From assembly GCF_030817015.1 (NCBI RefSeq), contig NZ_JAUSYS010000001.1, forward strand, positions 1,364,001-1,428,000: a DNA stretch of 64,000 bases, written 5' to 3'. This document shows, piece by piece, positions 9,351 through 21,793 of the stretch; positions within the stretch are counted from its first letter, which is position 1; every line of letters starts with the position of its first letter. The stretch is from Arthrobacter sp. V1I7. GTDB lineage: Bacteria > Actinomycetota > Actinomycetes > Actinomycetales > Micrococcaceae. The translations under genes were made by a program, and so were the position numbers. A model generated the notes under the pieces. It was not told the origin of the DNA. It made no database searches and was given only the letters and a program-made list of their open reading frames with translations.

Positions 9351-9373
9351 GGTTGGTGCTGTAATGCCTGCTG

Positions 9374-9455
9374 TGCGCAAGGGGGGACTTGAACCCCCAC
9401 GCCCGAAGGCACAGGAACCTAAATCCTGCGTGTCTGCCAATTTCACCACTCGCGC
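9374..9455 (-). tRNA. tRNA-Leu (TAG)
   Basis: Read on the minus strand, an 82-nt class II tRNA. The acceptor stem GCGCGAG pairs with CTTGCGC (one G-U), with discriminator A. The anticodon stem CAGGA/TCCTG encloses loop TTTAGGT, giving anticodon TAG. A variable arm and a GGTTCAAGT T-loop are present. CCA is not encoded. A TACAAT box lies about 50 bp upstream (plus 9507-9512), without a convincing -35. Confidence 0.95.
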
Positions 9456-9553
9456 TCGGCGCCGCCGTCCTGGTGCGAGGACCGTCGACAGCGGATGCCA
9501 GCCTCCATTGTACATTTTGACCGCCCGCCCGGGACGACGCAGGGGTGGTCGGC

Positions 9554-10030
9554 TTAGGCGTCCACTTTCAGGTCCCGGCGCAGCTTGGCGACGTGGCCGG
9601 TGGCGCGGACGTTGTACTGCGCCGCGGTCACTTTGCCGTCCGGGTCGACGACGACGGTGGACCGGATGAGCCCTTCGTAGCTGCGGCCGTAGTTCTTCTT
9701 CTCGCCCCAGGCGGCGTAGGCCTCGGCAACGGCGTGGTCCTCGTCAGAGAGCAGGGGGAAGTTCAGGCCCTCGGCGGCGGCGAATTTCGCGAGCTTGCCT
9801 ACGGGGTCGGGGGAGATCCCCACCACCTCGTAGCCGGCCTGCTGCAGGGACGCGAGGGAATCCCGGAAGTCGCAGGCCTGCTTCGTGCAGCCCGGGGTGG
9901 ATGCTGCCGGGTAGAAGTAGATCACCGTGCTGCGCCCCCGGAAGTTCCGCAAGCTGACGTCCTCCCCGGTAGAATTTTTCAGGGTGAAGTCCGGCGCCGG
10001 GGCTCCGGGAATGAGTCGTTCAGGCAACAT
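9554..10030 (-). CDS. bcp: Peroxiredoxin, Bcp/PrxQ type
   Basis: A 158-residue cytoplasmic thiol peroxidase that reduces hydrogen peroxide and organic peroxides using thioredoxin. The active-site block is YFYPAASTPGCTKQACDFRD: peroxidatic Cys48 in the P-x3-T-x2-C signature, with resolving Cys53 five residues later, the atypical 2-Cys arrangement of PrxQ. Conserved VVGISPD follows. ATG at 10030 has AAGGAGA. It is divergent from the MarR gene 82 bp away; that regulator lacks an obvious redox cysteine, so coregulation is only a possibility. Confidence 0.95.
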   Translation of the reverse strand: MLPERLIPGAPAPDFTLKNSTGEDVSLRNFRGRSTVIYFYPAASTPGCTKQACDFRDSLASLQQAGYEVVGISPDPVGKLAKFAAAEGLNFPLLSDEDHAVAEAYAAWGEKKNYGRSYEGLIRSTVVVDPDGKVTAAQYNVRATGHVAKLRRDLKVDA

Positions 10031-10112
10031 ATTCTCCTTATGCAGGTGGGGTGTCCCAGCCTAATGAGCCTTGGTGCGGGCGACGAATCCGGCGCTCGCT
10101 ATACTCATTGGT

Positions 10113-10604
10113 ATGCCTGATATGGATCGCTGGCCCACTGGGCGCCTATTGTCCACGGCGGCACGCCTTGTTGAACACTCCTGGAACGAAAAACTGGGGG
10201 CCATCGGGCTGACACACGCCGGGGTCATCGCCATGGAGGTCCTCTCGGTTAATGGACCGATGACGCAGGCCCAACTGGCGCAACTCGTTCGGGTTCAGGC
10301 GCAAACCATGGGGAAGACGCTCAGCCGTCTGGAAGCGCATGGACACATCTCCCGGCAGCGCAGCACGTCCGACCGGCGCAGCCACGTGGTCACCCTGACG
10401 GACCGGGGACGCGAGGCCGTTAGCGCTGCCGCGGACATGGAGCGTTCCGTGCTCGCCGCAGCCTCGATTGACCCCGACGTCCTGCGGCAGGAACTGCAGG
10501 CGGTTGTCAGGGAGCTGGCCACCCGGATCTCCTCGCCGGATGCCAAGGCCGTGGTCACGGCCGCTGATCCGGCCATTGCCGTCGAGGCCACCCACCTCGG
10601 CTGA
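10113..10604 (+). CDS. MarR family transcriptional regulator
   Basis: A 163-residue winged-helix regulator. The recognition region is MTQAQLAQLVRVQAQTMGKTLSRLEAHGHI and the wing has RSTSDRRSHVVTLTDRGRE, the DxRxxxxxLT signature of MarR proteins. ATG at 10113 is preferred over the upstream in-frame start at 10071 because TATACT (10100-10105) sits 7 bases before it and no ribosome-binding site is visible, consistent with leaderless translation. It lies divergent from bcp. There is no N-terminal cysteine of OhrR type, so the ligand is unknown. Confidence 0.9.
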   Translation: MPDMDRWPTGRLLSTAARLVEHSWNEKLGAIGLTHAGVIAMEVLSVNGPMTQAQLAQLVRVQAQTMGKTLSRLEAHGHISRQRSTSDRRSHVVTLTDRGREAVSAAADMERSVLAAASIDPDVLRQELQAVVRELATRISSPDAKAVVTAADPAIAVEATHLG

Positions 10605-10753
10605 CGCCCCGCTGCGACTGACGCCCCGCGGCAACTGCGCCGGCTGGTGAATACCACCGGCCCTCCCCACACGCGGAAACGCCCCCGCCAGCCCGTCTGT
10701 TCGGCAGCAGCGTGGGAAGCGGAGGGCGCCCGGTGGCCTGAAAGCCGATGCCC

Positions 10754-11686
10754 TTACTGCCCGGTGTTACCGGCCGCCAGGTTCGGCGGAATCGTTCCCG
10801 GTCCCTTGTCCGACTTCTCTTCGCGTTCGGCGGCGCTGCGGGTGTCGCTGGCGGCGGTACCGTCTGAATCCCCTTCGACGTCCACGAGACCGTTGGTCTG
10901 GTCGAAGGGATGCGTGGCGGCGCGGTCGGCGAGCGGTTCGCCCGCGGTGACAGTCGTTCCCGAAGCCATCCCGGCCGGCGGGAAGGCACTTCCTGAGGTT
11001 CCGGTCGGCGGCAGTTGCCCCGAGCCTACCGCGCCCGTCCGCGTGGCCTCCCCAGTGTCCTGGACCGGGCTGGTGTCGTCGGTCTCCTTGCCGCGCGTGG
11101 CTGCTGCGGCGCCGACGGCAGCGGCAGCGGCCACGCCGACTCCGGCAGCGAGTTTGCCCGACACTCCGGCCTTGCCGGAATCACCGCGGGAGGCGGCGGC
11201 GTCGTCGACTCCGGGCGTGCCTACCGATCCCTCAGTGCCTACCCTGCCCCGCCACGCTCCCGAAGCGTAGCCCTCATCTTCAATAAAGCTTTTGAACCGT
11301 TCGAGGTCCTTCTCAGCCTGCCGCTCGACAACATTGAGTTTGTCGCCGACACTTTCCACGAGGCCCTCGGGCTCATACTCGAGGACCAGAACTACGGACG
11401 TCTGCCCGCCGCCGAGGTCCTCGAAGGTTACTGAGCCGGCGTTGGTGGCCCCCGATGTGGCCGCCCAGGCCACCTTCCGGTCCGGGATCTGCTCGAGGAT
11501 CCTGGCTTCCCATTGGCGCCTGACACCGGCGATTTCGGCTACCCACTCGAGACGGTCGTCACTGAGCTGCTTGACGCTCTTCACCCCGCCCATGAAATGC
11601 GGGAATTCCTCGAACTGTGTCCACTGGTTGTAGGCCGTGTTGACTGGCACGCTAACCTGGATGCGCTTTTCAACCTTGGTGTTCAC
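10754..11686 (-). CDS. SRPBCC (polyketide cyclase/dehydrase-like) family protein
   Basis: A 310-residue protein with an N-terminal START/SRPBCC hydrophobic-ligand fold at about residues 1-150 (VEKRIQVSVPVNTAYNQWTQFEEFPHFMGGV, later FEDLGGGQTSVVLVLEYEPEG). A long Ala/Gly/Thr-rich low-complexity tail follows, with no recognisable domain. Start GTG at 11686 is chosen because GGAGGAGA lies just upstream; the frame is open further but that part is not family-like. Similar proteins in actinobacteria are annotated as cyclase/dehydrase or membrane oligoketide cyclase, with unproven function. Confidence 0.85.
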   Translation of the reverse strand: MNTKVEKRIQVSVPVNTAYNQWTQFEEFPHFMGGVKSVKQLSDDRLEWVAEIAGVRRQWEARILEQIPDRKVAWAATSGATNAGSVTFEDLGGGQTSVVLVLEYEPEGLVESVGDKLNVVERQAEKDLERFKSFIEDEGYASGAWRGRVGTEGSVGTPGVDDAAASRGDSGKAGVSGKLAAGVGVAAAAAVGAAAATRGKETDDTSPVQDTGEATRTGAVGSGQLPPTGTSGSAFPPAGMASGTTVTAGEPLADRAATHPFDQTNGLVDVEGDSDGTAASDTRSAAEREEKSDKGPGTIPPNLAAGNTGQ

Positions 11687-11794
11687 AACGTCTCTCCTCC
11701 GAGTCGATCTATGACCTGGCGAACGATACAAATTCGTCAGTAGGCTTACTATAACCGCCTGATCGATGTGGAACCAGAACGGCCAAAGGTTCAT

Positions 11795-12139
11795 CGGACT
11801 ACGTGCTCCGCCACGCGGTCTCCGCGTGTCAGGTCTCAGCCGGGGGACGCTCCCGATAAGGTCGTTTCATGGATTCGTCGCCACCTCTGGAGCTGGAAGG
11901 GCAACGCTCCATCAACGAGCTGCTCGACGAGCCAATCGGGGACCGTCCCATCCAGCTCGAGCTGCCGATCCCGGGGCGCCTCCGGCCGGCAGTCCGACGG
12001 GTTGGCCGGGCGACCGTGAGCAGCGGTCGAGGACGTTAGCAGCCCTCCTCGCGCTGTCAGCCCAGCGCATGACCTCACTCGTTTTCCCCACCGTGGGGCC
12101 ACCGAGCATCAAAGCGGTCACGGCAGGGGGTTCCCTGAC
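11795..12139. other. Gene-less, decayed stretch downstream of the GH32/PfkB remnant
   Basis: No convincing gene. Short open frames exist on both strands but none has a family pattern or ribosome site. A minus-strand stretch around 11,880-11,980 reads DGTVPDWLVEQLVDG, which looks protein-like but is too short to name. The region probably holds debris of genes that once followed the GH32 hydrolase. Confidence 0.4.
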
Positions 12140-12330
12140 GCTCAAGGTCGAAGTCCTATGAGGCCGAGCCGTCGGCAGCGAGGGTGGCGGGGTGGCGGAG
12201 GCTGTGCGGTCCGCTGACTTTGAGCCAGGGAGGAGCTCGACGCCGGCACTGCGGAGGTGGGCTTCGATCGCTGCACCCCGGGGGTCATCCCCGAGTGACG
12301 TGAGCAGGGCAGTGGGCACCCCAGGCGTCG
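12140..12330 (-). pseudogene. PfkB-family sugar kinase (fructokinase-like) remnant
   Basis: About 60 codons of a ribokinase-family kinase with neither start nor end. The minus strand reads GVPTALLTSLGDDPRG, then SAGVELLPGSKSADRTASAT, the N-terminal pattern of PfkB sugar kinases. An 8-bp tandem duplication (CGCCACCC) then shifts the frame. In the corrected frame the text continues ATLAADGSAS, a TAG in place of the expected Tyr codon, then DFDLE. Its upstream end is fused to the GH32 gene. A kinase after a fructan or sucrose hydrolase would have phosphorylated released fructose. Confidence 0.75.
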
Positions 12331-13882
12331 TCACCGGACAGCCTGCGGACAACGTTGCCATCTACCAGGAGCTGGGCTTCGAGGAGCTGACCGGAGCCTG
12401 CGGCCCGGTGTCCACCGCCCACCAGCATGCTCATGAAGTTCAGGGACACCGTGAACGACGGCGACGTCATGGTCCCCTGCCTGTCGTCACCGGGTGCGCC
12501 ACCCGTTTCGAACGTGTTGATCCGCTTGGCGCCTATATGGAAGTCGCCGCCGGAGGTGGCGGGCTGGTACTGAGGTGCCAGATCGCCGGTCCCAGACCAG
12601 CCCGCGTCGGCCATTGAAGTTCCGTCAGGAACCTCGAAACCATCAAACAGCAACTCGCCGGAGGGCGGAGTGTTGTCCAGCTTGTCCGAGGTGCGGGGGT
12701 GCTGGCCACCGCCCACCAGGAAGTTGAGGTAGTCGCTCGCGACCGTGAAAGCGGGGGATTCCGTCGTGCCCAGCGGCCAGTCGCCGTCGTTGAAAGAGTT
12801 GATCAGTCCCGGGCCGGTAAAGCCGGTGACGATGTTCTGTCCCGGAAGTGTGCCCGCCGACGGGACGTCGCCGAATGGTCCGTTCTTCCAGTTGCCAGGC
12901 TCGTTGTTCACCGTCCAGCCGTTGTAGGTTCCGTCGTTGAAGCCGGCCAGCGGCGTCCCGGCCGGCAGGGCGTCGCTGGCCTCGGTGGACTCGGAAGTGA
13001 AGGTGGTGCCGTCGAAGTCGCCCACGAAGTACTGGCCCGCCGATCCGCCGGCCACGCCGCCGGGGTTGATGCTGACCACCATGACCCACTTGGTGTTTGC
13101 GGGGTCTCCGTCCACCGCGAGGGGGAACAGATCCGGGCATTCCCAGAGGCCGCCCGTCGCGTTGGCCGGCCCGAACTCGCTCAGGAGCGACCAGTCCTTG
13201 AGGTTCCCGGACTTGTAAAGCAGCACTTTGTGGTCGACGGCCTCGACGACGGCCATCACCCAGTAGCCTCCGCCGCCCGGCGAGTCGTACCAGAAGACCT
13301 TAGGGTCCCGGAAGTTTGCAGAGTTCCGGTTAGGACCGGATTGGCATCGTATTTCGTCCATGTCTGACCGTCATCCAGGCTGTAGGCGAGCGACTGTGCC
13401 TGGAGGCCCCGGTGGGGCGAGGCGTCCTTGTAGGCGCTTGTGAAAACCGCCACCAGCGGCGGGTTCCCGGCCGTCCCGAAACCGGAGGTATTGTCCTTGT
13501 CCACCACCACGCTGCCGGAAAAGATGTCCTGCTGGTCATCGGTGGGGATGGCCAGCGGCTGCTCCTTCCAGTGCGTCAGGTCCTTGGACGTGGCGTGGCC
13601 CCAGGACATGTTTCCCCACGTGTTTCCGGAGGGGTTGTGCTGGTAGTACAGGTGGTAGACGCCCTTGTGGAAGACCATCCCGTTGGGATCGTTCAGCCAG
13701 TTCTGTTCCGGCGTGTAATGGATTGCCGGCCGGTATTGTTCTTCGCCGACGGTGGCCGCAGCCTGCGCCTGCGCGGCGCCTGCCAGTGCCGCCGACAGGC
13801 TGAGCCCGGCCAGGGTGAGCGCAGAACACACCCGGATTTTTTTGGATTTGGTGGTCAACATATTTTGGAGGTCGCCCTTCAT
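12285..13882 (-). pseudogene. Glycoside hydrolase family 32 (levanase/invertase-like), frameshifted and 3'-truncated
   Basis: A secreted fructan or sucrose hydrolase. The N-terminal frame (13882 to about 13330) has a signal peptide ending near AQAQAAA and the nucleophile motif WLNDPNG (Asp65). The second frame carries FRDPKVFW (transition-state Asp) and WECPDLFPL (acid/base Glu), so all three catalytic blocks exist but in two frames. One base is missing near 13330; adding it gives NPVL then NRNSANFRDP. The beta-sandwich tail ends at VDGNVVRRLSGDD, where the sequence switches to a PfkB-like frame, so the 3' end is lost. A LacI-type palindrome precedes it. MLTT at 13861 is an alternative start. 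Confidence 0.88.
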
Positions 13883-13901
13883 CGCGCGTGCCTAGTAAAT
13901 A

Positions 13902-13913
13902 GACAACGTTGTC
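13902..13913. promoter_or_regulatory. LacI-type operator upstream of GH32 gene
   Basis: A perfect 12-bp palindrome GACAACGTTGTC lies 20 bp before the GH32 start, within TGACAACGTTGTCT on the coding strand. The central CG and AACGTT core are typical of sugar-responsive LacI-family operators, such as those for sucrose and fructan genes. The cognate regulator is not adjacent. Confidence 0.7.
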
Positions 13914-14141
13914 AGTGACAGGAACGGTAAGTTATGTCCACAAGACAAGTCAACGAAAGGGGGGCCGGGGCGCGACCGAGCCCCTCGGCGGCCAGAATGG
14001 CGGCGTTAGCCCGCATGATCTACATGCAGAGCGAGCAGATGAACAGCTCGTGAGCCGGCGATCTCGGCCGGCTTCCGGAGCCGGAGGGTCTGCCGGAATA
14101 GCTAGCGCGTAAATGTCCCTTTGAGGGAATTGGGCAAAAGA

Positions 14142-14185
14142 AAACCCCGTCCTCACCGGCCGCCAGGCCAGTAAAGACGGGGTTT
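14142..14185 (-). terminator. Orphaned native terminator of tRNA-Lys
   Basis: AAACCCCGTC and GACGGGGTTT form a 10-bp stem, followed on the minus strand by TTTTCTTTT. It lies just outside attL, facing the duplicated tRNA-Lys 3' end, and so is probably the chromosomal terminator separated from its tRNA by insertion of the element. Confidence 0.7.
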
Positions 14186-14189
14186 CCGT

Positions 14190-14228
14190 TGGTGCACCCC
14201 CCGGGACTCGAACCCGGAACCCATTGAT
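14190..14228. other. attL: duplicated 3' end of tRNA-Lys
   Basis: These 39 bases are identical to 21718-21756, the CCA end, acceptor 3' strand, T-arm and variable region of tRNA-Lys. Here they are followed by unrelated DNA instead of the anticodon arm, so this is not a tRNA gene but the attachment-site remnant of an integrated element. Confidence 0.92.
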
Positions 14229-14389
14229 CCCGAATAGGGGCAAGTCTTGCATACCCCACACGACCCGCGTATCATCCACAGGCCCCCATGTGAGAACCGC
14301 GGAATCTAGGGGTTTTTGCCATATTTTGGCCCATTAAATCCACGGTCACCCCACCGCAATCCCTATGCCCCCATAGGTCACCACGGATT

Positions 14390-14412
14390 AAAAGACGACT
14401 AAACGACGAGTA
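14390..14412 (+). repeat. 23-bp direct repeat, left copy (candidate integrase arm site)
   Basis: Identical in 23 of 23 bases and orientation to 21625-21647. It contains two related half-units, GACGACTAA and ACGACGAGTA. It lies 161 bp inside attL, while its partner lies 70 bp inside attR. Location on both arms of the presumed attP suggests arm-type binding sites for the element's tyrosine recombinase. Confidence 0.6.
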
Positions 14413-14426
14413 AATAGGCCCATCCG

Positions 14427-14459
14427 TTGACAGTAGCCAAGTGTCAACCTAGGGTTGAC
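14427..14459 (+). promoter_or_regulatory. Promoter with overlapping operator for the small HTH gene
   Basis: TTGACA (14427-14432), a 17-bp spacer and TAGGGT (14450-14455) make a good housekeeping promoter; transcription would start about 14462, at the ATG. The palindrome GTCAACCTAGGGTTGAC (14443-14459, 7-bp arms) covers the -10, and TGTCAA (14442-14447) also pairs with the -35 TTGACA. Binding of the encoded HTH protein here would repress its own synthesis. Confidence 0.65.
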
Positions 14460-14462
14460 GTT

Positions 14463-14654
14463 ATGGATGCGAAGAAGAAGCAAGACTCACTGGAAGCTAT
14501 CCGCTGGCCACTCGAAGCACTCAAGCAGGAGGAGGCTCGCCTGCACGGCTATGTCAAAGTGGCCCGCATAGACGGCGCATCATGGACCGAGATCGGCAAG
14601 ATCCTAGGCGTCACCCGGCAAGCGGCGCAGAAGCGCTTCGGCAAGCCCTCCTAG
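14463..14654 (+). CDS. Small helix-turn-helix protein
   Basis: A 63-residue protein made of an N-terminal amphipathic helix (DSLEAIRWPLEALKQEEARLHGYV) and a C-terminal helix-turn-helix (GASWTEIGKILGVTRQAAQKRFG). It is probably a DNA-binding regulator. ATG at 14463 coincides with the predicted transcription start, so translation is likely leaderless; the open frame upstream overlaps the promoter. It is the first gene inside attL. No pathway can be assigned; self-repression is inferred from the palindrome over its -10 box. Confidence 0.75.
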   Translation: MDAKKKQDSLEAIRWPLEALKQEEARLHGYVKVARIDGASWTEIGKILGVTRQAAQKRFGKPS

Positions 14655-14738
14655 CCAAGGCTTCGGACTCCGCTGCGGACGCGCTCGTTTAGGTGGGTAG
14701 TATGCTCGGTGATCTTTACTTCTATTTGGGGGTTTCTC

Positions 14739-15110
14739 TTGAAACGCATTCTCGCGCCGATCGCCATCATCGCCACGCTGCTCCTCGCTGGTTGCAGTGG
14801 CCCCAGTAAGGATGCCGACTACAAGGACGTAAACGACTTGGCTACCGCATATAAGCAGGCGGTCGGCGGCGGTATGGACTGCTTCGAAACGAAGAACGAC
14901 ATTCACGACCATGATTGGGTTCAGACGACCTGCGGCCCAACAGCGATCGTGATGATGTTTACATCCGACGCTATCCGCGAAGAGGTCAAGAAGAAGAACC
15001 CCCTAGAATCCGGACGGCGCTTTATCCAGGGTAAGAACTGGCTCATCGAGGGTGACCAGTATGAGATCGAGAAAGCGCATGAAGTTCTGGGTGGGGAACT
15101 ACTCAAGTAG
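14739..15110 (+). CDS. Small lipoprotein, unknown function
   Basis: About 123 residues from TTG at 14739, preceded by GGGGG 6 bases upstream; GTG at 14709 is an alternative. The signal peptide KRILAPIAIIATLLLAGC carries an LAGC lipobox. The mature part has two cysteines (MDCFET and TTCGPTAIVMMF) that could form a disulfide, and ends HEVLGGELLK. No family is recognised. It lies within the tRNA-Lys element; similar short lipoproteins with a paired-Cys core are common in actinobacterial prophages and islands. Confidence 0.7.
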   Translation: MKRILAPIAIIATLLLAGCSGPSKDADYKDVNDLATAYKQAVGGGMDCFETKNDIHDHDWVQTTCGPTAIVMMFTSDAIREEVKKKNPLESGRRFIQGKNWLIEGDQYEIEKAHEVLGGELLK

Positions 15111-15153
15111 CGACGCCGCCGCGGCCGACGCGCTGGGCTGACACTCACACCTC

Positions 15154-15184
15154 AAGGCCCTGCACCCTCCCGGTGCGAGGCCTT
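15154..15184 (+). terminator. Terminator after the lipoprotein gene
   Basis: AAGGCC and GGCCTT, with inner CACC and GGTG, form an interrupted stem 43 bp after the lipoprotein stop. The T-tract is short (TTACC), so strength is uncertain. Confidence 0.5.
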
Positions 15185-15335
15185 ACCCATGCCCCCAGAA
15201 ACTCGCCGCCGCCCTAGCCGGGCCTCCCAGCACCGGCATCTGCGCCCGTCGTCTCGGCGATTCCGGAGCGGCATGTCCCACCAACGAAAAAGCCGGCCCC
15301 ACCCAGTGAAGGTTGGCGGGGCGCTTTGGGCTTAC

Positions 15336-15436
15336 TCACTTGGTCGCTCGAGGGGTGTCGGTCGTCAGGTGGTGATCAGGATTGACGGTAGGAACCTGGC
15401 TGCCGGCTTCGTATTTGCCGGTGTAGCTCGGGCGTC
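15336..15436 (-). pseudogene. 3' remnant of a second holin-like gene
   Basis: The minus strand reads YTGKYEAGSQVPTVNPDHHLTTDTPRATK and stop, matching the C-terminus of the holin-like gene at 19381-19719 (YQGKHEDGSQVPNV, then NTEQHLTAD). Only about 32 codons survive and the membrane-spanning part is gone. A weak stem-loop follows at about 15289-15325, as one does after the intact copy, so a gene-plus-terminator unit was duplicated and then lost. Confidence 0.7.
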
Positions 15437-15530
15437 TTAGTTTGCGAGCATGCAGAACAACTCAACTCGCCGGTACGAGTGCCCGTCCGGGTGACCTGCT
15501 AGGGTTTCGAAACCAGCTAGAGGAGACCCT

Positions 15531-16331
15531 GTGATTATTTTCGAAGTGACGAAACCGGGTACTTGGCTTCAAGGGATCGAAGACAGCCAAGTGAAACGTG
15601 ACGTCGAAGCGTTGCTAGACCTACTGCTCCAATGCCTGGCAGACGCCGCTGTCTCCCTCTCCCTGTTTGAGACAGCTCGAGCGCAATATCCGAGGCCCGG
15701 CGCGTTCACTGAGGAACAGCGGAGAAAAGAGTCGGCCCAGGTGCAGCGCCATCTTGATCGACTGTTGCGCGATTTGCCGCCCGGGTTGGACGGCGCGGAT
15801 CGATTCGATGCCCGAAACCGACTCAGCGACCTAGCGCGGGTCGAGGCGAAGAAGCAGCGGTGGTTAGACGGGGAAGTGCCTATGGCCTATCGCAGTCGGC
15901 TATCCGTCATACATGCGAAGTCATGCCTCTATGCATTCGACACTCTGCAGAAGACGCTGGGCCTCCTTCAGAAGATGCCCGGGGCGCCGACCGAAATCGC
16001 AGAGGCTGTCTCCGACTTTGAAGCCGGCTTCCCCGGCCTAGTCCACGTGAGGGACTCAGCGCATCATGCCGAAGATAGGGCACAAGGCAAGAGACGGAAA
16101 TCTCGGATTGATCTCCAACCTGTTTCGAACGACCTAATCAATGCCCCCAGCGGCGGTGCTCTGATACACAATGTTTTTATTGGCAATCGGTTCGGCAGCA
16201 CACTGGGAGATGGAAGTTACGGCGAAGTCGAAATAAGCGCTGAATCTGTCGGTCGCTGCCAAAGTGTCGTGCAGTCCGTTTACGACTCCTACCAGTGGTC
16301 AGGGCCCACGGAGCATAAGCCGAGCTCTTAG
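15531..16331 (+). CDS. Hypothetical protein, element cargo
   Basis: A 266-residue soluble protein of unknown family. GTG at 15531 has an AGAGGAGA site 6 bases upstream, and a TAGGGT -10 candidate lies at 15500-15505. The first 150 residues look mostly helical with charged heptads (VKRDVEALLDLLLQCL, QVQRHLDRLLRDLP, RNRLSDLARVEAKKQRW). The C-terminal part is Gly/Ser/Asn-rich (GALIHNVFIGNRFGST, GDGSYGEVEISAESV) and may be beta-rich. No signal peptide or membrane segment. The coding frame looks intact, unlike most neighbours. It overlaps the convergent pseudogene by 4 bp. Confidence 0.75.
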   Translation: MIIFEVTKPGTWLQGIEDSQVKRDVEALLDLLLQCLADAAVSLSLFETARAQYPRPGAFTEEQRRKESAQVQRHLDRLLRDLPPGLDGADRFDARNRLSDLARVEAKKQRWLDGEVPMAYRSRLSVIHAKSCLYAFDTLQKTLGLLQKMPGAPTEIAEAVSDFEAGFPGLVHVRDSAHHAEDRAQGKRRKSRIDLQPVSNDLINAPSGGALIHNVFIGNRFGSTLGDGSYGEVEISAESVGRCQSVVQSVYDSYQWSGPTEHKPSS

Positions 16332-16685
16332 GCCGACAGGAAGCCGGGCAATCTCTCACCCCACCTGACGCCGCGCAGGTTATCTGGACAGCGGCGGTAC
16401 TCTTCGATGTCCCACTCCGAGTCCGTGACGCGGCGAACGTTCCCAGCGGGGATCCAAGCCCAGTGAGCGTGGCTCTCATCGTCGCCCCAGGACACGAGGA
16501 TATGGGACGGGTTCCAGCGCTCCGCGACGGCGTAGACATCGACCGTTCCGCCGCCGGCAAGTGGCACGGCGGCCCTGATCTTCGGGTAGTTCCCGTAAGT
16601 CCAGGACTTAGCTTTCTTCCGGTGGGCGGTCCGGATCCGGTTTCAGGTATTCGTACGTTTCCCCGCCGAGGGTGAAGGATGCCAT
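16328..16685 (-). pseudogene. Frameshifted hypothetical gene, copy 1
   Basis: ATG at 16685 begins MASFTLGGETYEYLKPDPDRPPEE, then meets TAA. In another frame it continues KSWTYGNYPKIRAAVPLAGGG, with WNPSHILVSW, HWAWIPAGNVRRVTDSEWD and the end LPGFLSA at 16328. The two parts join near 16620-16626, so the gene has lost its frame. A near-identical arrangement at 17429-17792 shows this was one protein of about 115 residues. Function is unknown. The Trp-rich core suggests a small compact domain, and similar short proteins occur in actinophages. Confidence 0.75.
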
Positions 16686-16936
16686 GGGGCCATGCTACCC
16701 AAACACCAAAACGACCCCGCAGGCCGCGTGCTGCGTGCAGGGTCGTTCCGGTAGAACGTCCTGCCACCATTGGGTGTACGACACAACCTGCTCAGCCTAG
16801 GGGGCAGGGTGGTGCTGGTCAACGGTATTGCCGGGATGACGAACTATGACTAGCGTGTGCTTTCAGAAGTGGCCCGGAGTACCCAATTGGGGGGTGGGCC
16901 AACTCTGCGGCCTCTCATTGAGGCAATGACGGAACT

Positions 16937-16968
16937 GCCCCGGCACCTGTCGTTGGTCCGGGGCTTTT
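16937..16968 (+). terminator. Rho-independent terminator-like stem-loop
   Basis: GCCCCGG and CCGGGGC arms around a 14-base loop, followed by TTTTCT on the plus strand. No intact plus-strand gene precedes it closely, so it is probably left from a lost gene. Confidence 0.55.
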
Positions 16969-17076
16969 CTGTGCCGTGAAGGGTTGGGCCAGAGCCCCGA
17001 CCAAGGAAATGTACAGGTCCGGCAAATAGTTTCGACGCAGGAATCATCTTCCCCCTAGGTTCGATGGTTCTCACAA

Positions 17077-17115
17077 GGGGCTGGCTCCATCGTCGCGAAC
17101 AATGGAGCCAGCCCC
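17077..17115. repeat. Perfect 14-bp inverted repeat
   Basis: GGGGCTGGCTCCAT and ATGGAGCCAGCCCC flank an 11-base loop. It could be a terminator stem or a protein site; no T-run follows on either strand. Confidence 0.6.
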
Positions 17116-17428
17116 GCCCCATGTTACGTACGTGTCCAAAAGTGGACACCTGAGCCAATCGCCCCAGTGCAGGGTTCGACACATTCTCGGCAAATGCCGA
17201 GTTTGCCTTGATATCTGCCGGCTGACGCGCTCCAGCTTGCTGGGCCACCACTTCTAGCGCTGGAATCTATGGCATGGGCGGGTGCCTGGCCTGACCCAAA
17301 GCGCCCCCGCCCCGTCTCGGTCTCAAGAAGTCGCGGCGGGGGCGTTCCGGGTGAACCGTCCTGCCGCTATGGGGGTTGCGAGAGAACTCGGTAAACATAA
17401 GTCGCCGAGGTTATGCAAGTCAAGTGAA

Positions 17429-17792
17429 TCAGCTACGCCGGGCAGGAAGCCTGGCAGACGGTCTCCCCATCGGATTCCGCGCAAGTGTTCCGGGCACTTC
17501 GGACATTTGTCCGATGTCCCACTCTGAATCTGTCACGCGCCGGACGTTCCCGGAGGGTATCCACGCCCAGTGCACGTGCCGCTCGTCGTCGAGCCAGTTG
17601 GCCAGGATGTGGGAGGGGTTCCAGCGGTCCGCGTGAGCGTATACGTCGATGGTCCCCGCCCGCTGCTAGAGGAAGGCTTGCCATGACCTTTGGACGCTGC
17701 CCGTATGTCCACGACTGGGCGTCTTCCGGTGGGTGGCCGGGATCGGGCATGAGGTACTCGTAGGTGGTCCCGTCCAGGGCGAAGCTCCGCAT
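17429..17792 (-). pseudogene. Frameshifted hypothetical gene, copy 2
   Basis: ATG at 17792 begins MRSFALDGTTYEYLMPDPGHPPED, then WTYGQRPKVMASLPLAAGG. At a G-run (plus 17654-17657) the frame shifts; removing one G continues TIDVYAHADRWNPSHILANW, HWAWIPSGNVRRVTDSEWD, to TGA at 17429. About two thirds of residues match copy 1 over the core, with different ends. Its lesion is at another place from that of copy 1, so the two copies were disabled independently. Confidence 0.75.
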
Positions 17793-17905
17793 AGACACAA
17801 GCGTAGGGGGGTAACGGCGAAACTCAACGTTGGGCTGGCAAAGGCCAAGAGCGTCCCAGCCCGATGGGGCTGTGACGCTCTTCTACATGCAGCCATTCTG
17901 GGCAG

Positions 17906-18115
17906 CTACCGGCGCAGACCCAAGATCGCAAAACATCCCAGCAGCGTCGGTGGTATCAGGATCCAAGGCTCAGTACCCCGCAAACCGATTCCGACCAAGC
18001 CGATCGCAAGCGCCACGATGGCGAGAAACAGCACTACAAGGCTTACAAGATCAATCCGCCAGGTCCTGTTCTGGCGTGGACGAATCTCCTGATGATGGTG
18101 TCGTATTGTCATCAT
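17906..18115 (-). CDS. Small membrane protein, unknown
   Basis: A 69-residue protein with a basic His/Arg-rich N-terminus and two membrane segments (LVSLVVLFLAIVALAIGLVG at about 23-42 and WILIPPTLLGCFAILGL near the end). It overlaps the last 65 bases of the preceding 322-residue gene in another frame, which suggests translational coupling. A start further in cannot be excluded. No family is recognised; the hydrophobic pattern is the main evidence that it is real. Confidence 0.55.
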   Translation of the reverse strand: MMTIRHHHQEIRPRQNRTWRIDLVSLVVLFLAIVALAIGLVGIGLRGTEPWILIPPTLLGCFAILGLRR

Positions 18116-19019
18116 CTTCTCCTCGCCGTTTACGTGTCGCCTTGATTACCGACCATACCTTCGAGGTGCGACTGTTCTTGGTCGTCTGCACTTCGCGAAT
18201 AGTGACATCGAATATGTCATTCTTGTGGAGGGCCATTCCGCGGTCGAGCTGGAGAAGGAACTCCTCGTCCTCCATGATAACGCTGCGAGTCCCGTGCAGA
18301 GTCTTGATCCGCCATTTTTCTCCGGGCTTGAAATCAATGCTCCGCAGCTGCGCTTCAGCCTCAAATTCATTTACCCACTCGGAGACATCATCACTCTGAT
18401 GTACGGCCGCGCGATAGTCATCCCTGCCTGCAACAACGTCCGGCGGCGTCTCCAGGATTTCGCTGGTCGTCTCGCTGCCGCTACCGTCACGAATCTCAAG
18501 CATGTCGGCTTCGTCACCGAGAGGCGCCATGATCCGGGAGAGGGCCTTGCGGGTCTGCCTCTTCGACTTCTGCAGCTCCTTCCATACCCCCGCCGGAACC
18601 TGAGACGGTGTGGAGCCATCCTTCCACTTCAACTTCACGTCACCGTTGTTGAGTTCATCCCAGTCTTCTACCACGCCGCCGCGGGTGACCTTGATCCCCA
18701 CATTGATTGCCTGCGTAAGCAGACCGCCGGCGGTTGTGGCCATCGTCAGCGCTCCCTCTGGATTCGCCGCTGACCACTGCAGGATGGCCTCAATAATGAA
18801 CGAGCCCTTTTCGGGGGGCCTTACGCGGACCTCCGGAGGTACTCCTTCTCCATACAGCCCGGCTCTCGCCATTTGCCCGTTGAGTTCAACAAGGCCCAAC
18901 AGAGACTCCGCCATCTCGGCCGCGTTGATGTCGGTGATGCTTCCCGCTTCGTCGGAAAATCGCAGCTGCACCAACCCGCCCAGCAGATCGTCACGCTTTT
19001 TACTGAGCTGCTCGCTCAT
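18051..19019 (-). CDS. Hypothetical protein with central hydrophobic segment
   Basis: A 322-residue protein from ATG at 19019, with GAGGGGGAG just upstream. Residues 1-60 (LVQLRFSDEAGSITDINAAEMAESLLGLVELN) precede a conserved-looking VRPPEKGSFIIEAILQW. A hydrophobic helix (GALTMATTAGGLLTQAINVGIKV, about 92-114) may contact a membrane. The C-terminal third has a beta-rich segment (IDFKPGEKWRIKTLHGTRSVIMEDEEFL) and a charged tail (RKRRGEDDDNTTPSSGDSS). I do not recognise the family; a similar layout is seen in prophage and island genes. It forms a pair with the small membrane protein after it. Confidence 0.75.
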   Translation of the reverse strand: MSEQLSKKRDDLLGGLVQLRFSDEAGSITDINAAEMAESLLGLVELNGQMARAGLYGEGVPPEVRVRPPEKGSFIIEAILQWSAANPEGALTMATTAGGLLTQAINVGIKVTRGGVVEDWDELNNGDVKLKWKDGSTPSQVPAGVWKELQKSKRQTRKALSRIMAPLGDEADMLEIRDGSGSETTSEILETPPDVVAGRDDYRAAVHQSDDVSEWVNEFEAEAQLRSIDFKPGEKWRIKTLHGTRSVIMEDEEFLLQLDRGMALHKNDIFDVTIREVQTTKNSRTSKVWSVIKATRKRRGEDDDNTTPSSGDSSTPEQDLAD

Positions 19020-19197
19020 GCTCCCCCTCGTTCTCTGAGCCGCATGCAGTTTCAGCAGGGCTGTTGGAGCCATGTTTGCCGCACACGACCCGGTACCTCA
19101 GGGTAGCGGGCCGCAGACGGTCATTTGTCCAGAATCCGGCGTGGCGCCACTGGAATTTCCCGGTTTGTACATTCTGGAACTCCCACCAAACCTGCAT
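19000..19197 (-). CDS. Possible short protein upstream of the 322-residue gene
   Basis: A 65-residue frame starting MQVWWEFQNVQTGKFQWRH and overlapping the next start by 20 bases. It has the feel of a phage-type small protein (Trp-rich N-terminus, FWTNDRLRPATLRYRVVCGKHGS), but the ribosome site is weak and no family is known. It may be spurious. Confidence 0.25.
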   Translation of the reverse strand: MQVWWEFQNVQTGKFQWRHAGFWTNDRLRPATLRYRVVCGKHGSNSPAETACGSENEGEHERAAQ

Positions 19198-19343
19198 AAC
19201 TCTGATCAAGGCAAGAAGGAAACGGCCCCTACGTTCCTTGCAAATAGAGGGAAGCAAAGCCGCCGGATCAGTCGCGGGGACCATCTCTTCTTGATTGTGG
19301 CTAGAGATGGGTGGTGTAACTGACGAACTCCCACCAAAAGCTG

Positions 19344-19377
19344 AAGCGCCCGCCCACCGAAGTGGGACGGGCGCTTT
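19344..19377. terminator. Terminator after the holin-like gene
   Basis: GCGCCCG and CGGGCGC with inner CCAC and GTGG arms around a CGAA loop, just beyond the holin-like stop. GCTTTTGC on the plus side and CAGCTTTTGG on the minus side allow either direction. Confidence 0.7.
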
Positions 19378-19380
19378 TGC

Positions 19381-19719
19381 TTACTCTCTGAGCCGTTCTC
19401 GCGTGTCGGCCGTGAGGTGCTGTTCAGTGTTGACGTTCGGAACCTGGCTGCCGTCTTCGTGTTTGCCCTGATAGGTCGGCGTCTGTGCGGAGCCGAGTAC
19501 AGCCCGGGTAAACCAGTCCGGCAGGCGCGGTTCCAGCCAGCGCCAGAAGGCGTACCAGGCGCCGATGATGACCGCGGTAAGGATGGGCAGGATGATGTCC
19601 GCGACGCCCAGCAGGTGCGCCTCAAGAGGGGCCAGCAGCGGGGCCACGCCCAGCAGCCAGGCTACGAGGCTGCCCCACAGTGCCGGGACGAGGGTCCGGA
19701 GAATGGAGGTCAGCAGCAT
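19381..19719 (-). CDS. Holin-like small membrane protein
   Basis: 112 residues. ATG at 19719-19717 overlaps the TAA of a short upstream frame (TAATG), a coupling typical of phage lysis cassettes. Two hydrophobic helices occupy about residues 5-27 (ILRTLVPALWGSLVAWLLGV) and 40-60 (DIILPILTAVIIGAWYAFWRW); a charged soluble tail ends TADTRERLRE. Size and topology fit class II holins, which make pores for lysin release, but no lysin gene is present. The short preceding frame (about 19721-19800, ending EEAFKAHQEAEAK) has no clear start and is probably a fragment. A 3' remnant of a second copy lies at 15336-15436. Confidence 0.6.
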   Translation of the reverse strand: MLLTSILRTLVPALWGSLVAWLLGVAPLLAPLEAHLLGVADIILPILTAVIIGAWYAFWRWLEPRLPDWFTRAVLGSAQTPTYQGKHEDGSQVPNVNTEQHLTADTRERLRE

Positions 19720-19844
19720 TACTTGGCCTCCGCTTCCTGGTGCGCCTTGAACGCTTCCTCGACCTGATCCCGGGTGACGACGTGGCGTTTCTCGTGTCCG
19801 GCACCTGGAAGCTGGACTCCGGGCAGGCAAAAGGCCCGGGGACG

Positions 19845-19878
19845 CAAACAAAAAGGCCCCGGTCCAGGGACCGGGGCC
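19845..19878 (-). terminator. Strong Rho-independent terminator
   Basis: An 11-bp perfect stem GGCCCCGGTCC with its complement and a 2-base turn, followed on the minus strand by TTTTTGTTTG. It would stop transcripts coming from the ATP-grasp/XRE side before the holin-like gene, so the long open frame spanning it is unlikely to be one gene. Confidence 0.8.
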
Positions 19879-20109
19879 GAACGCGGAGACGGGGGAGTGA
19901 CCCCCGCGGGACGCTCAATAGGCCGCTCTTCTGCCCCGGAATCCCCGGGGTTTCGGTGTTCTGTGGTGTCTCGAAGGAGCAGGACTTTGCATGCTTGGCT
20001 GACAATATCAGCCAGGGTCATGCCGGGGGGGGCTACCGGGTCGTAACCCGTGGGGTGGGGGAGCGTACCGTGCGTTTCAGGCTCCCCGGCGGCGGGGGCC
20101 ATTTGCCGT

Positions 20110-20287
20110 CTTTCATCCTATTAAAGGCGGCGAGTATGAGCTCTGCCAGGTCCTCCCGCACCGCCCCGCACCTCGCCTCGAGGTCGTTGCACGTAAAGGG
20201 GTCTCATCGCAGCCGCTTGCCCAGGTAGCTGCGCGACAAGCCGGAGCATTGGGCCAGCAGCACTGCGCTGCCTCGGTGCCGGCCCAT
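20110..20287 (-). pseudogene. XRE-type helix-turn-helix protein with in-frame stop
   Basis: ATG at 20287 gives SGLSRSYLGKRLR, then TGA at 20206-20204; without it the frame continues DPFTCNDLEARCGAVREDLAELI. The joined text has the XRE/Cro-repressor pattern (SRSYLGKRLR, PFTxNDLE, then LAELI). This looks like a phage-type repressor inactivated by a nonsense mutation. It begins 18 bp after the ATP-grasp gene on the same strand. Confidence 0.7.
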
Positions 20288-20305
20288 CACGCTACGGCAC
20301 CCGGT

Positions 20306-21349
20306 CTACTCCGAGAGGCGGATCATTTCGTCTACCAGCGCCTTGCCCACGTTGACCGCATCACCGTAGGCGGGCCGATGGTGAACGGTAATGTTGGCGG
20401 AAGTGTTCGCTTCCAGGACTACGGCGCCGTCCGCGGACTCGAGCGACCGGACCATCAAGTCGATGCCTGCTGCTCCGAGCCCTGGGATGGCGCGAGCCGC
20501 ACGCACAGCCAGATCCTTGAGGTCGTCCGAAATGGACTGGGTGACATCGACGTTCTCGCCGCCCTGGTGAAGATTCGCCGTTTCATTCAAGAGCGCTACG
20601 GCTCCATGCTCGGGGATGGTCGTCATGCTGTGTCCAACACGCGCAAGGTGGTCCGCATCCACCACGAGTGGGAATTTTGCCAAGTACGCGTTCTTTGCCC
20701 GCTCGGCCAACTTGGCCTCGATCAGCTCTGCAATGGTGTGTCGCCCGTCCCCCACAACGTGAGCGGGGAGTCGCGTCGCGGCCGCAACGACTCGATTGCC
20801 CACCACGTAGGCCCGGATGTCGAGGCCGACTATTTGCTCCTCGATCATGATCGAAGAGGATAATAGCCCAGCCGAGGCCCGCAACCAGGCCTCACGGAAC
20901 TCGTCATTTCCGGAGACGCTGCACGTGACGCCATCGCCGGCGGAACCGGCGCTGGGCTTTACGACGAGCAAGCCGGTTGCCGATTCAAGATAGGACAGGC
21001 CCCGCTCTAGTTCTGAAGTCTTCAAAACGATACCGGCAGGCGTCGCTACTCCTGCGGCTTCCAAAAGTTCCTTCGTGGCTTCCTTGGACCGGCAAACGGA
21101 GACCGCGATGCTGCTGACGAGGCTTGTCACCATCTTTTGCGTGCCTCCGATCAATCGACCTTCACGGTAGAAGCAACGCCCCGTCCCGAAGTCGCGGACC
21201 TCCAAGCCTCGGGCCTTCGCACCCTGGGCTATGTAGGCCGTGTGCCAGGTGACGCCACGGTAGGACCGGAAGCTTCCCTCGGTAATCGCCGGGAAAGTCT
21301 GGATGAAGTTGCTGATCAGATCGAGGCTCGTGAATAGTCCCAGCTGCAT
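20306..21349 (-). CDS. ATP-grasp ligase, cyanophycin-synthetase-like domain
   Basis: A 347-residue cytosolic enzyme with a full ATP-grasp fold. SKEATKELLEAAGVATPAG opens the domain; LLVVKPSAGSAGDGVT is the ATP-binding loop; EEQIVGLDIRAYVVGNRVVAA and HVVGDGRHTIAELIE match the CphA/GshF subgroup; GIDLM and VLEANTSANITVHHRP provide the metal-binding acidic and Asn residues. Such enzymes join a carboxylate to an amine through an acyl-phosphate. The N-terminal 80 residues resemble no known substrate domain, and the Mur-ligase half of CphA is absent, so cyanophycin synthesis is unlikely. GGGGG lies before the ATG. It is intact cargo of the decayed element; its substrate is unknown. Confidence 0.8.
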   Translation of the reverse strand: MQLGLFTSLDLISNFIQTFPAITEGSFRSYRGVTWHTAYIAQGAKARGLEVRDFGTGRCFYREGRLIGGTQKMVTSLVSSIAVSVCRSKEATKELLEAAGVATPAGIVLKTSELERGLSYLESATGLLVVKPSAGSAGDGVTCSVSGNDEFREAWLRASAGLLSSSIMIEEQIVGLDIRAYVVGNRVVAAATRLPAHVVGDGRHTIAELIEAKLAERAKNAYLAKFPLVVDADHLARVGHSMTTIPEHGAVALLNETANLHQGGENVDVTQSISDDLKDLAVRAARAIPGLGAAGIDLMVRSLESADGAVVLEANTSANITVHHRPAYGDAVNVGKALVDEMIRLSE

Positions 21350-21389
21350 GTTCCCCCACTAGTGAAAAGACTGGTTGGGCCCGGTGTGA

Positions 21390-21602
21390 ACCCTAAGTGA
21401 GGGTACCAGCGACCGAAGTGCCGAAACGTCAGCGACTGCCACGCTGATCGAGCGGGAGAGCGGATCCCTCATCGCATCCAGGCAGCTAGGGCATAGCTCG
21501 GACGCGATCACGAAAAAGCACTACATCGAGCGCAACCGGAACGCGCCGGACTCATCCCTGATCTTGGAGCAGATGAACAGTCGGGTCACGCTGGTCCACT
21601 AG
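21390..21602 (+). pseudogene. Tyrosine recombinase (integrase), C-terminal fragment
   Basis: The frame ending at TAG 21600-21602 reads TLIERESGSLIASRQLGHSSDAITKKHYIERN. This holds the second-His motif LGHSS and the catalytic Tyr (KKHYIE) of the XerC/phage-integrase family. The conserved HxxR box and everything upstream are missing; the frame is closed at 21387. It sits 116 bp from attR, the usual place for int. The fragment cannot be active. Confidence 0.85.
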
Positions 21603-21624
21603 CCGCCATGATCGGCCAGCGTTC

Positions 21625-21647
21625 AAAAGACGACTAAACGACGAGTA
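21625..21647 (+). repeat. 23-bp direct repeat, right copy (candidate integrase arm site)
   Basis: Exact copy of 14390-14412, placed between the integrase end and attR, 70 bp from the core. Confidence 0.6.
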
Positions 21648-21673
21648 GCCCTGTTTTTGGGCAACGAAAAAAA

Positions 21674-21708
21674 CGCTCCAACACCCGACTTTCGCCAGTG
21701 TTGGAGCG
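21674..21708. terminator. Element-supplied terminator for tRNA-Lys
   Basis: CGCTCCAACAC and GTGTTGGAGCG form an 11-bp stem. On the minus strand it is followed by TTTTTTT, 10 bp beyond the tRNA-Lys CCA end. It lies inside the element and replaces the tRNA's own terminator, now at 14142-14185. A T-run on the plus strand would also end the integrase transcript. Confidence 0.8.
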
Positions 21709-21717
21709 GTTTTTCTG

Positions 21718-21756
21718 TGGTGCACCCCCCGGGACTCGAACCCGGAACCCATTGAT
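21718..21756. other. attR within tRNA-Lys
   Basis: The 39 bases identical to 14190-14228. The match stops inside the 3' anticodon stem, a common crossover limit for tRNA-targeting integrases. Confidence 0.92.
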
Positions 21757-21793
21757 TAAGAGTCAATTGCTCTGCCAGTTGAGCTAGAGGTGC
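21718..21793 (-). tRNA. tRNA-Lys (CTT), CCA encoded
   Basis: Minus strand. Acceptor GCACCTC pairs with GGGGTGC (one T-G), discriminator A, then encoded CCA. D-arm, anticodon stem ATTGA/TCAAT with loop CTCTTAA (anticodon CTT) and GGTTCGAGT T-loop are all regular. Its 3' 39 bases are the attR half of the integrated element, so the gene remains functional after insertion. Confidence 0.97.

Follow-up and report, generated by a model that had tools for sequence, protein, structure and literature searches.

A phage remnant in tRNA-Lys(CTT) of Arthrobacter sp. V1I7 with a putative homologue of the MichelleMyBell gp29/gp30 pair

Genes 29 and 30 of MichelleMyBell, a cluster N mycobacteriophage, are named viral defence genes in two reports (PMC5559632, PMC11856565), and a third counts MichelleMyBell among abortive-infection-like systems (PMC6426606). 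The first two also describe an analogous pair in the Gordonia phage BaxterFox (PMC5559632) and calls of the system, MMB_gp29_gp30, in Clavibacter genomes, with a mechanism called unknown (PMC11856565), so that the system has already been reported beyond mycobacteriophages. Lambda RexAB, Sbash gp30/gp31 and CarolAnn gp44/gp43 are likewise reported as prophage-encoded combinations of a cytoplasmic and a membrane protein that exclude other phages. Here we describe a candidate relative of the MichelleMyBell pair in Arthrobacter sp. V1I7. It lies at positions 14190-21756 of a 64,000-nucleotide stretch of contig NZ_JAUSYS010000001.1 (the window, to which all unprefixed coordinates refer), in an element inserted in tRNA-Lys(CTT). 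The explanation we favour, with a probability of about 0.6, is that this element derives from a temperate phage, has been shrunken by deletion and most likely still serves as an anti-phage module through its gp29/gp30-like pair.

The gp29/gp30-like pair

The larger gene of the pair (18051-19019, minus strand) encodes a 322-residue gp29-like protein of the LAPAL family, and the smaller one (17906-18115, minus strand) encodes a gp30-like protein of 69 residues whose frame overlaps that of the larger gene by 65 bp. The 322-residue protein matches NCBIfam NF053583 with 142.5 bits (cut-off 60) and, together with all 22 members of its alignment, the PADLOC candidate family PDC-S42. In a tblastn search it matched 37 phage records (33 from Mycobacterium and 4 from Gordonia, some of them duplicates); MichelleMyBell was matched at 6e-36 with 36% identity over 96% of the query, and comparison with MichelleMyBell gp29 itself gives 41% identity over 299 aligned residues. 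As gp29 is followed by gp30 in an overlapping frame in MichelleMyBell, so the 322-residue gene is followed by that of the 69-residue protein, which was recognised by its position and hydrophobicity, has a peak hydropathy of 3.15 and shows two hydrophobic segments by eye. The arrangement is that of MMB_gp29_gp30, a small membrane protein encoded directly downstream of a gp29 homologue. A hydrophobic open reading frame (ORF) of 66-90 residues that begins 17-89 bp before the end of the large ORF was present in 16 of 17 sequences, MichelleMyBell gp30 among them, counted without a chance control. The script behind this count covered 18 sequences, several of them from near-identical cluster N phages and with L101 and L102 left out; it did not find the large ORF in L106 and found no partner in L091.

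In both MichelleMyBell and the window the pair occupies an accessory region between lysis genes and an integrase, whereas the window pair is found in a different group of hosts, within a prophage that has lost most of its content and whose other genes match Arthrobacter phages. A structure model and fold comparison predict an OB fold resembling that of single-strand-binding proteins for the C-terminal domain of the 322-residue protein. RexAB-type exclusion has a four-pass membrane partner; by eye, the one encoded here shows just two hydrophobic segments. A Pfam scan for the DUF4747 cytoplasmic partner returned DUF7946 only; the published DUF4747 links are weak HHpred matches and come from another method. 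Judged by family match, gene order and overlap, the 322- and 69-residue genes appear to be a homologue of the MichelleMyBell gp29/gp30 pair. Among 395 sampled genomes of the bacterial family, the gp29-like gene was found in two, namely this one and a weak match.

Two further homologues deserve mention. A metagenomic one (P0071) runs on into gp30-like sequence as if a frame change had fused the two overlapping genes, a fusion that may exist in nature or stem from faulty sequencing. A viral contig (L096, 3514-7505) has a gp30-like gene together with one for a gp29-like protein of 76% identity near a serine-type integrase, so that the pair is not tied to a single integration system.

Insertion site, terminator exchange and parent phage

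The initial annotation of this DNA, made from the sequence alone, had described a 39-bp perfect repeat bounding 7.5 kb of unrelated genes, and exact copies of the tRNA-Lys(CTT) 3′ end are indeed present at 14190-14228 and 21718-21756. The right copy (attR) is part of an intact tRNA-Lys(CTT) called by ARAGORN at 21718-21793 on the minus strand. Because ARAGORN calls no tRNA at 14190, the left copy (the attL core, a copy of the tRNA 3′ half) is a tRNA 3′ end and not a second tRNA gene, a reading that the annotation had named as fatal to its proposal. A search with the tRNA and the gene to its right covered 36 relatives from the genus and yielded loci for 29 of them (L004-L032). In 13 of these (L004-L008, L010-L012, L014, L024, L025, L029 and L031; seven junctions were inspected as aligned sequence) an alignment running from 14122-14142 through 14228 meets another that starts at 21689-21720, the 7.5 kb between them being missing. 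The left flank therefore joins the tRNA directly, as had been predicted for an empty site, which shows that the insertion is real and its ends exact; the remaining 16 loci match in the tRNA/att part only and are neutral on this point. Base composition was the other suggested check. The guanine-plus-cytosine (GC) fraction is about 0.57-0.63 over most of the element, rising to 0.67 around 19.5-20.5 kb, and 0.63-0.72 in the flanks, while at third codon positions it is 0.61-0.80 in the seven open ORFs of the element against 0.80-0.90 in three neighbouring ORFs.

Empty and occupied sites differ in the hairpin that adjoins the tRNA. In empty relatives it is a sequence similar to 14137-14189; in the window this predicted native Rho-independent terminator (minus strand; −41.6 kcal/mol, z −7.15, computed on 14132-14192) stands displaced beyond attL, and a different predicted hairpin (21660-21717, minus strand; −28.2 kcal/mol, z −4.64, computed on 21655-21720) is found beside the tRNA. 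As the latter is 94-98% matched beside the tRNA in three other genomes of the genus (G143, G076 and G118), the phage appears to deliver, along with the tRNA 3′ half, a predicted terminator of its own. A DNA search over 206 genomes of the genus found right ends of this type at 80% identity or more in at least six (the window, G143, G076, G118, G197 and G202, the last over 97 of 151 bases and without the arm), and a seventh, at 78%, in G126 among the matches listed.

Among these genomes, G143 carries the right end of the element at 85% identity and has the att core twice, about 48 kb apart (L070 6431-6469, identical at 100% to the attL core of the window, and L072 14289-14325). Ten proteins were scanned between these cores, three of which had no family; the prophage encodes a terminase large subunit, a portal, a major head protein, a tape measure, a tail-fibre-like protein, a single-strand-binding protein and a whole tyrosine integrase of 377 residues. 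The integrase fragment that the annotation had placed beside attR proves to be the end of such a gene: 21438-21602 (plus strand) encodes the last 54 residues and the stop codon, with a 16% DNA difference (84% identity) and a single residue difference from the G143 gene, and the protein search aligned 61 residues. A candidate arm-type repeat of 22 bp, AAAGACGACTAAACGACGAGTA, occurs in two exact copies in the window (14391-14412 and 21626-21647, both plus strand), against 0.00 expected from 100 shuffles; each end of the prophage in G143 has it too, with 19-20 of its 22 bases aligned. The G143 prophage shares the tRNA-Lys(CTT) att core, the arm repeats, the terminator, the integrase C-terminus and a gp33-like piece near attL, and it differs in its size, its structural genes and its whole integrase.

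Arthrobacter phages account for 33 of the 156 phage records matched by the interior DNA; the matches, of which 20 records are listed, comprise a membrane protein near lysis genes (gp27 of phage Persistence) and a small gene, gp33. Persistence and its relatives have homologues of both, in the order gp27, gp33, integrase, whereas their DNA identity to the window is about 70%. From these matches and the features shared with the G143 prophage, we conclude that 14190-21756 is what remains of a temperate tailed phage integrated in tRNA-Lys(CTT). It is a remnant and not a functional prophage, with just 54 integrase residues left and, in the 10 window ORFs scanned, no head or tail families save for an NCBIfam label on the gp29-like protein that is discussed below. 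The gp29-like protein had no match in the 16-kb part of Persistence examined or in any Arthrobacter phage record, its tblastn matches being to Mycobacterium and Gordonia phages only, and tblastn at 1e-4 found neither the LAPAL gene nor the ATP-grasp and 266-residue genes of the element in the G143 prophage. G076 has a second remnant from this type of phage in the same tRNA (L073 8490-12300), smaller still, with the integrase C-terminal part, a gp33 piece and a helix-turn-helix (HTH) gene; a second att core was not found in the fetched stretches of G076, nor in the G118 stretches searched. The element departs from tRNA-dependent lysogeny, which PMC10865867 describes as having a core of about 10 bp, a tRNA that is not rebuilt and a phage-encoded tRNA: the core here is 39 bp, the tRNA is rebuilt, and ARAGORN calls no tRNA inside the element.

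Decay, selection and competing explanations

The initial annotation was right about a decayed element in tRNA-Lys(CTT), with an empty site in relatives and open cargo genes; for its supposition that selection may be keeping the cargo, several findings can be cited. The frames of the cargo genes are full length compared with their homologues, and strongly conserved columns are kept at 59 of 60 positions in the gp29-like protein, 69 of 69 in the ATP-grasp protein and 49 of 54 in the 266-residue protein, a retention within the range of the other alignment members (up to 14 each). Damaged pieces carry four lesions in 978 bp and the four cargo genes none in 2959 bp (P 0.004, assuming that all pieces are of equal age); a one-base indel in the gp27-like fragment lies outside this count and would lower P if included. 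Other findings weigh against selection. With the lesion of gp33-like copy a alone, P is 0.11 to 0.14, and with the integrase stump added it is 0.15 to 0.20, neither of which is significant. Compared with the intact G143 gene, the stump has 26 synonymous changes and 1 non-synonymous change, so that nearly all of its divergence would predate the truncation; the decay looks recent, and the intact frames may have lacked the time to break rather than prove selection. Moreover, a lysis-region gene of 112 residues, for which there is no obvious host use, is open as well. Selective retention of the cargo is plausible but unproven, and a neutral remnant of recent decay, whose open genes survive by chance without selection or present function, is a serious possibility, if one we do not favour, in view of the lesion count at equal age and the almost complete retention of conserved columns.

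Several results also weigh against the assignment of the pair. The gp30-like protein shares 25% identity with MichelleMyBell gp30 over 61 residues and matched, by tblastn at 1e-4, only L085, L090 and L096 of the loci tested, so that the gp30 half of the assignment leans largely on position, length and hydrophobicity. No PADLOC family matched this protein, and PADLOC lists the gp29 family as the candidate PDC-S42 only. Foldseek against the PDB gave a best E of 0.01 for the OB-fold model, with no match at 0.001. Finally, the name that NCBIfam gives the gp29-like family, 'putative phage structural protein', points to another role. This name, and the presence of lysis and tail genes among the neighbours of the pair in phages, would suit a virion or lysis component. 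We consider such a role unlikely, given the published naming of the MichelleMyBell genes noted above, the position of the pair between lysis genes and integrase, and the occurrence of the family both in a phage whose integrase is a tyrosine enzyme and in the viral contig with a serine-type one.

It is equally improbable that the element is a non-autonomous mobilisable one, excised in trans by the integrase of a related prophage. Both att cores and both 22-bp arm repeats are exact and would serve such an enzyme, and related right ends exist elsewhere in the genus, but the genome holds no close integrase outside the element (the best other match has 26% identity and 24.7 bits), and we know of no circular form. 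An origin from an integrative and conjugative element since decayed, or from a plasmid, with which the tRNA site and integrase alone are compatible, is highly improbable, as the 10 ORFs scanned contain no relaxase, translocase or replication families (smaller fragments may remain), the 20 listed of the 25 matched plasmid records are tRNA-region matches except for two of 67-68 bp in the HTH gene, and the interior genes match Arthrobacter phages.

Other genes and a model of the element

From attL, the element begins with a small open HTH gene (14463-14654, plus strand; 63 residues, phrog_686 at 1.4e-7), which has an 83% DNA match within the G076 remnant, and an open lipoprotein-like ORF (14709-15110, plus strand; 133 residues, weak family matches only). 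These are followed by a 3′ fragment of a second gp27-like lysis-region membrane-protein gene (15355-15431, minus strand; an 81% repeat of 19403-19479), the 266-residue gene and two gp33-like copies, both on the minus strand: copy a (16325-16693), which has Arthrobacter phage matches and one frameshift, and copy b (17433-17798), with three frame-changing indels counted by eye, each in alignment with a G203 gene. Beyond the 69- and 322-residue genes lie the open gp27-like gene (19381-19719, minus strand), the ATP-grasp gene, the integrase stump and attR. The 112-residue product of the gp27-like gene is 61% identical to Persistence gp27, 68% to its homologue in G157 and 79% to that in G203. The duplicated gp33-like and lysis-region pieces are 72-81% identical, and this duplication suggests that two related prophages may once have been at the site. 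Mobility and regulatory genes had been described as nearly all broken; mobility and structural genes are in fact mostly absent, and the damage is to the integrase stump, the gp33-like copies and the lysis-region fragment. The three genes singled out as open are full length, but they share that state with the 69-residue, 112-residue, HTH and lipoprotein-like ORFs.

The ATP-grasp ligase (20306-21349, minus strand; 347 residues, open) is a relative of cyanophycin synthetase in the ATP-grasp part only, with residues 37-343 matching positions 161-471 of TIGR02068. A full-length cyanophycin synthetase was rejected at 188.1 bits against a cut-off of 850, the protein lacking the rest of that enzyme. 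At E 1e-40 or better, 38 of the 395 sampled genomes have a relative of the protein, 30 of these genomes belonging to genus g33, and no shared neighbourhood was seen in the three examined. A second ATP-grasp homologue is encoded in the same genome about 16 kb past the right end of the window (G000:C1:1444135-1445070). The 266-residue protein (15531-16331, plus strand; open and full length) belongs to phrog_5322 (1.5e-59) and has 22 other homologues; homologues occur in 10 viral contigs, no match was found in phage records at 1e-5, and the gene is present in 4 of the 395 genomes (this one, G341 and two weak matches). Both genes are most likely accessory cargo.

Outside the left end, parts of 9372-10574 align in the relatives' loci, followed by the tRNA-Lys region, and 10574-14122 hardly aligns. 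Since many relatives, in loci extending only about 1.5 kb beyond the match, barely align there, the segment left of the element seems itself variable. It contains a putative levanase/GH32-like gene, named by inspection of the sequence (12285-13882, minus strand), which looks frameshifted because its reading is split between frames that overlap, one spanning 12285-13361 and the other 13256-13882.

Returning to the remnant with a working defence pair, we propose the following model. A temperate tailed phage would have inserted in the 3′ half of tRNA-Lys(CTT) by means of its own tyrosine integrase. Its attP carried the tRNA 3′ half and a predicted terminator, so that integration rebuilt the tRNA and put this terminator beside it while the native one ended up across the element, as the comparison of empty and occupied relatives shows. 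Later deletions, whose number is deduced and whose extent is judged against G143, would have taken some five sixths of a phage as large as the one there, with every head, tail or replication gene that can be recognised and all of the integrase except its end. Through its predicted OB fold, the gp29-like protein may bind nucleic acid or nucleoprotein of an invading phage and, with its small membrane partner, stop the growth of the infected cell. More tentatively, and with rather low confidence, the whole gp29 family may be an OB-fold nucleic-acid sensor that overlapping genes couple to a two-pass membrane partner, and the prophage may have been reduced to a fixed island of defence genes from which the host continues to gain protection.

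To what has been reported for this system, the locus adds a copy of the pair in a decayed remnant and a structural clue, the predicted OB fold, the literature on gp29 structure not having been specifically searched. The att region, in several related elements, indicates that the tRNA 3′ end brought by a phage can come with a terminator to replace the native one. If the pair works, it would be a phage-defence module that has outlasted the phage that brought it.

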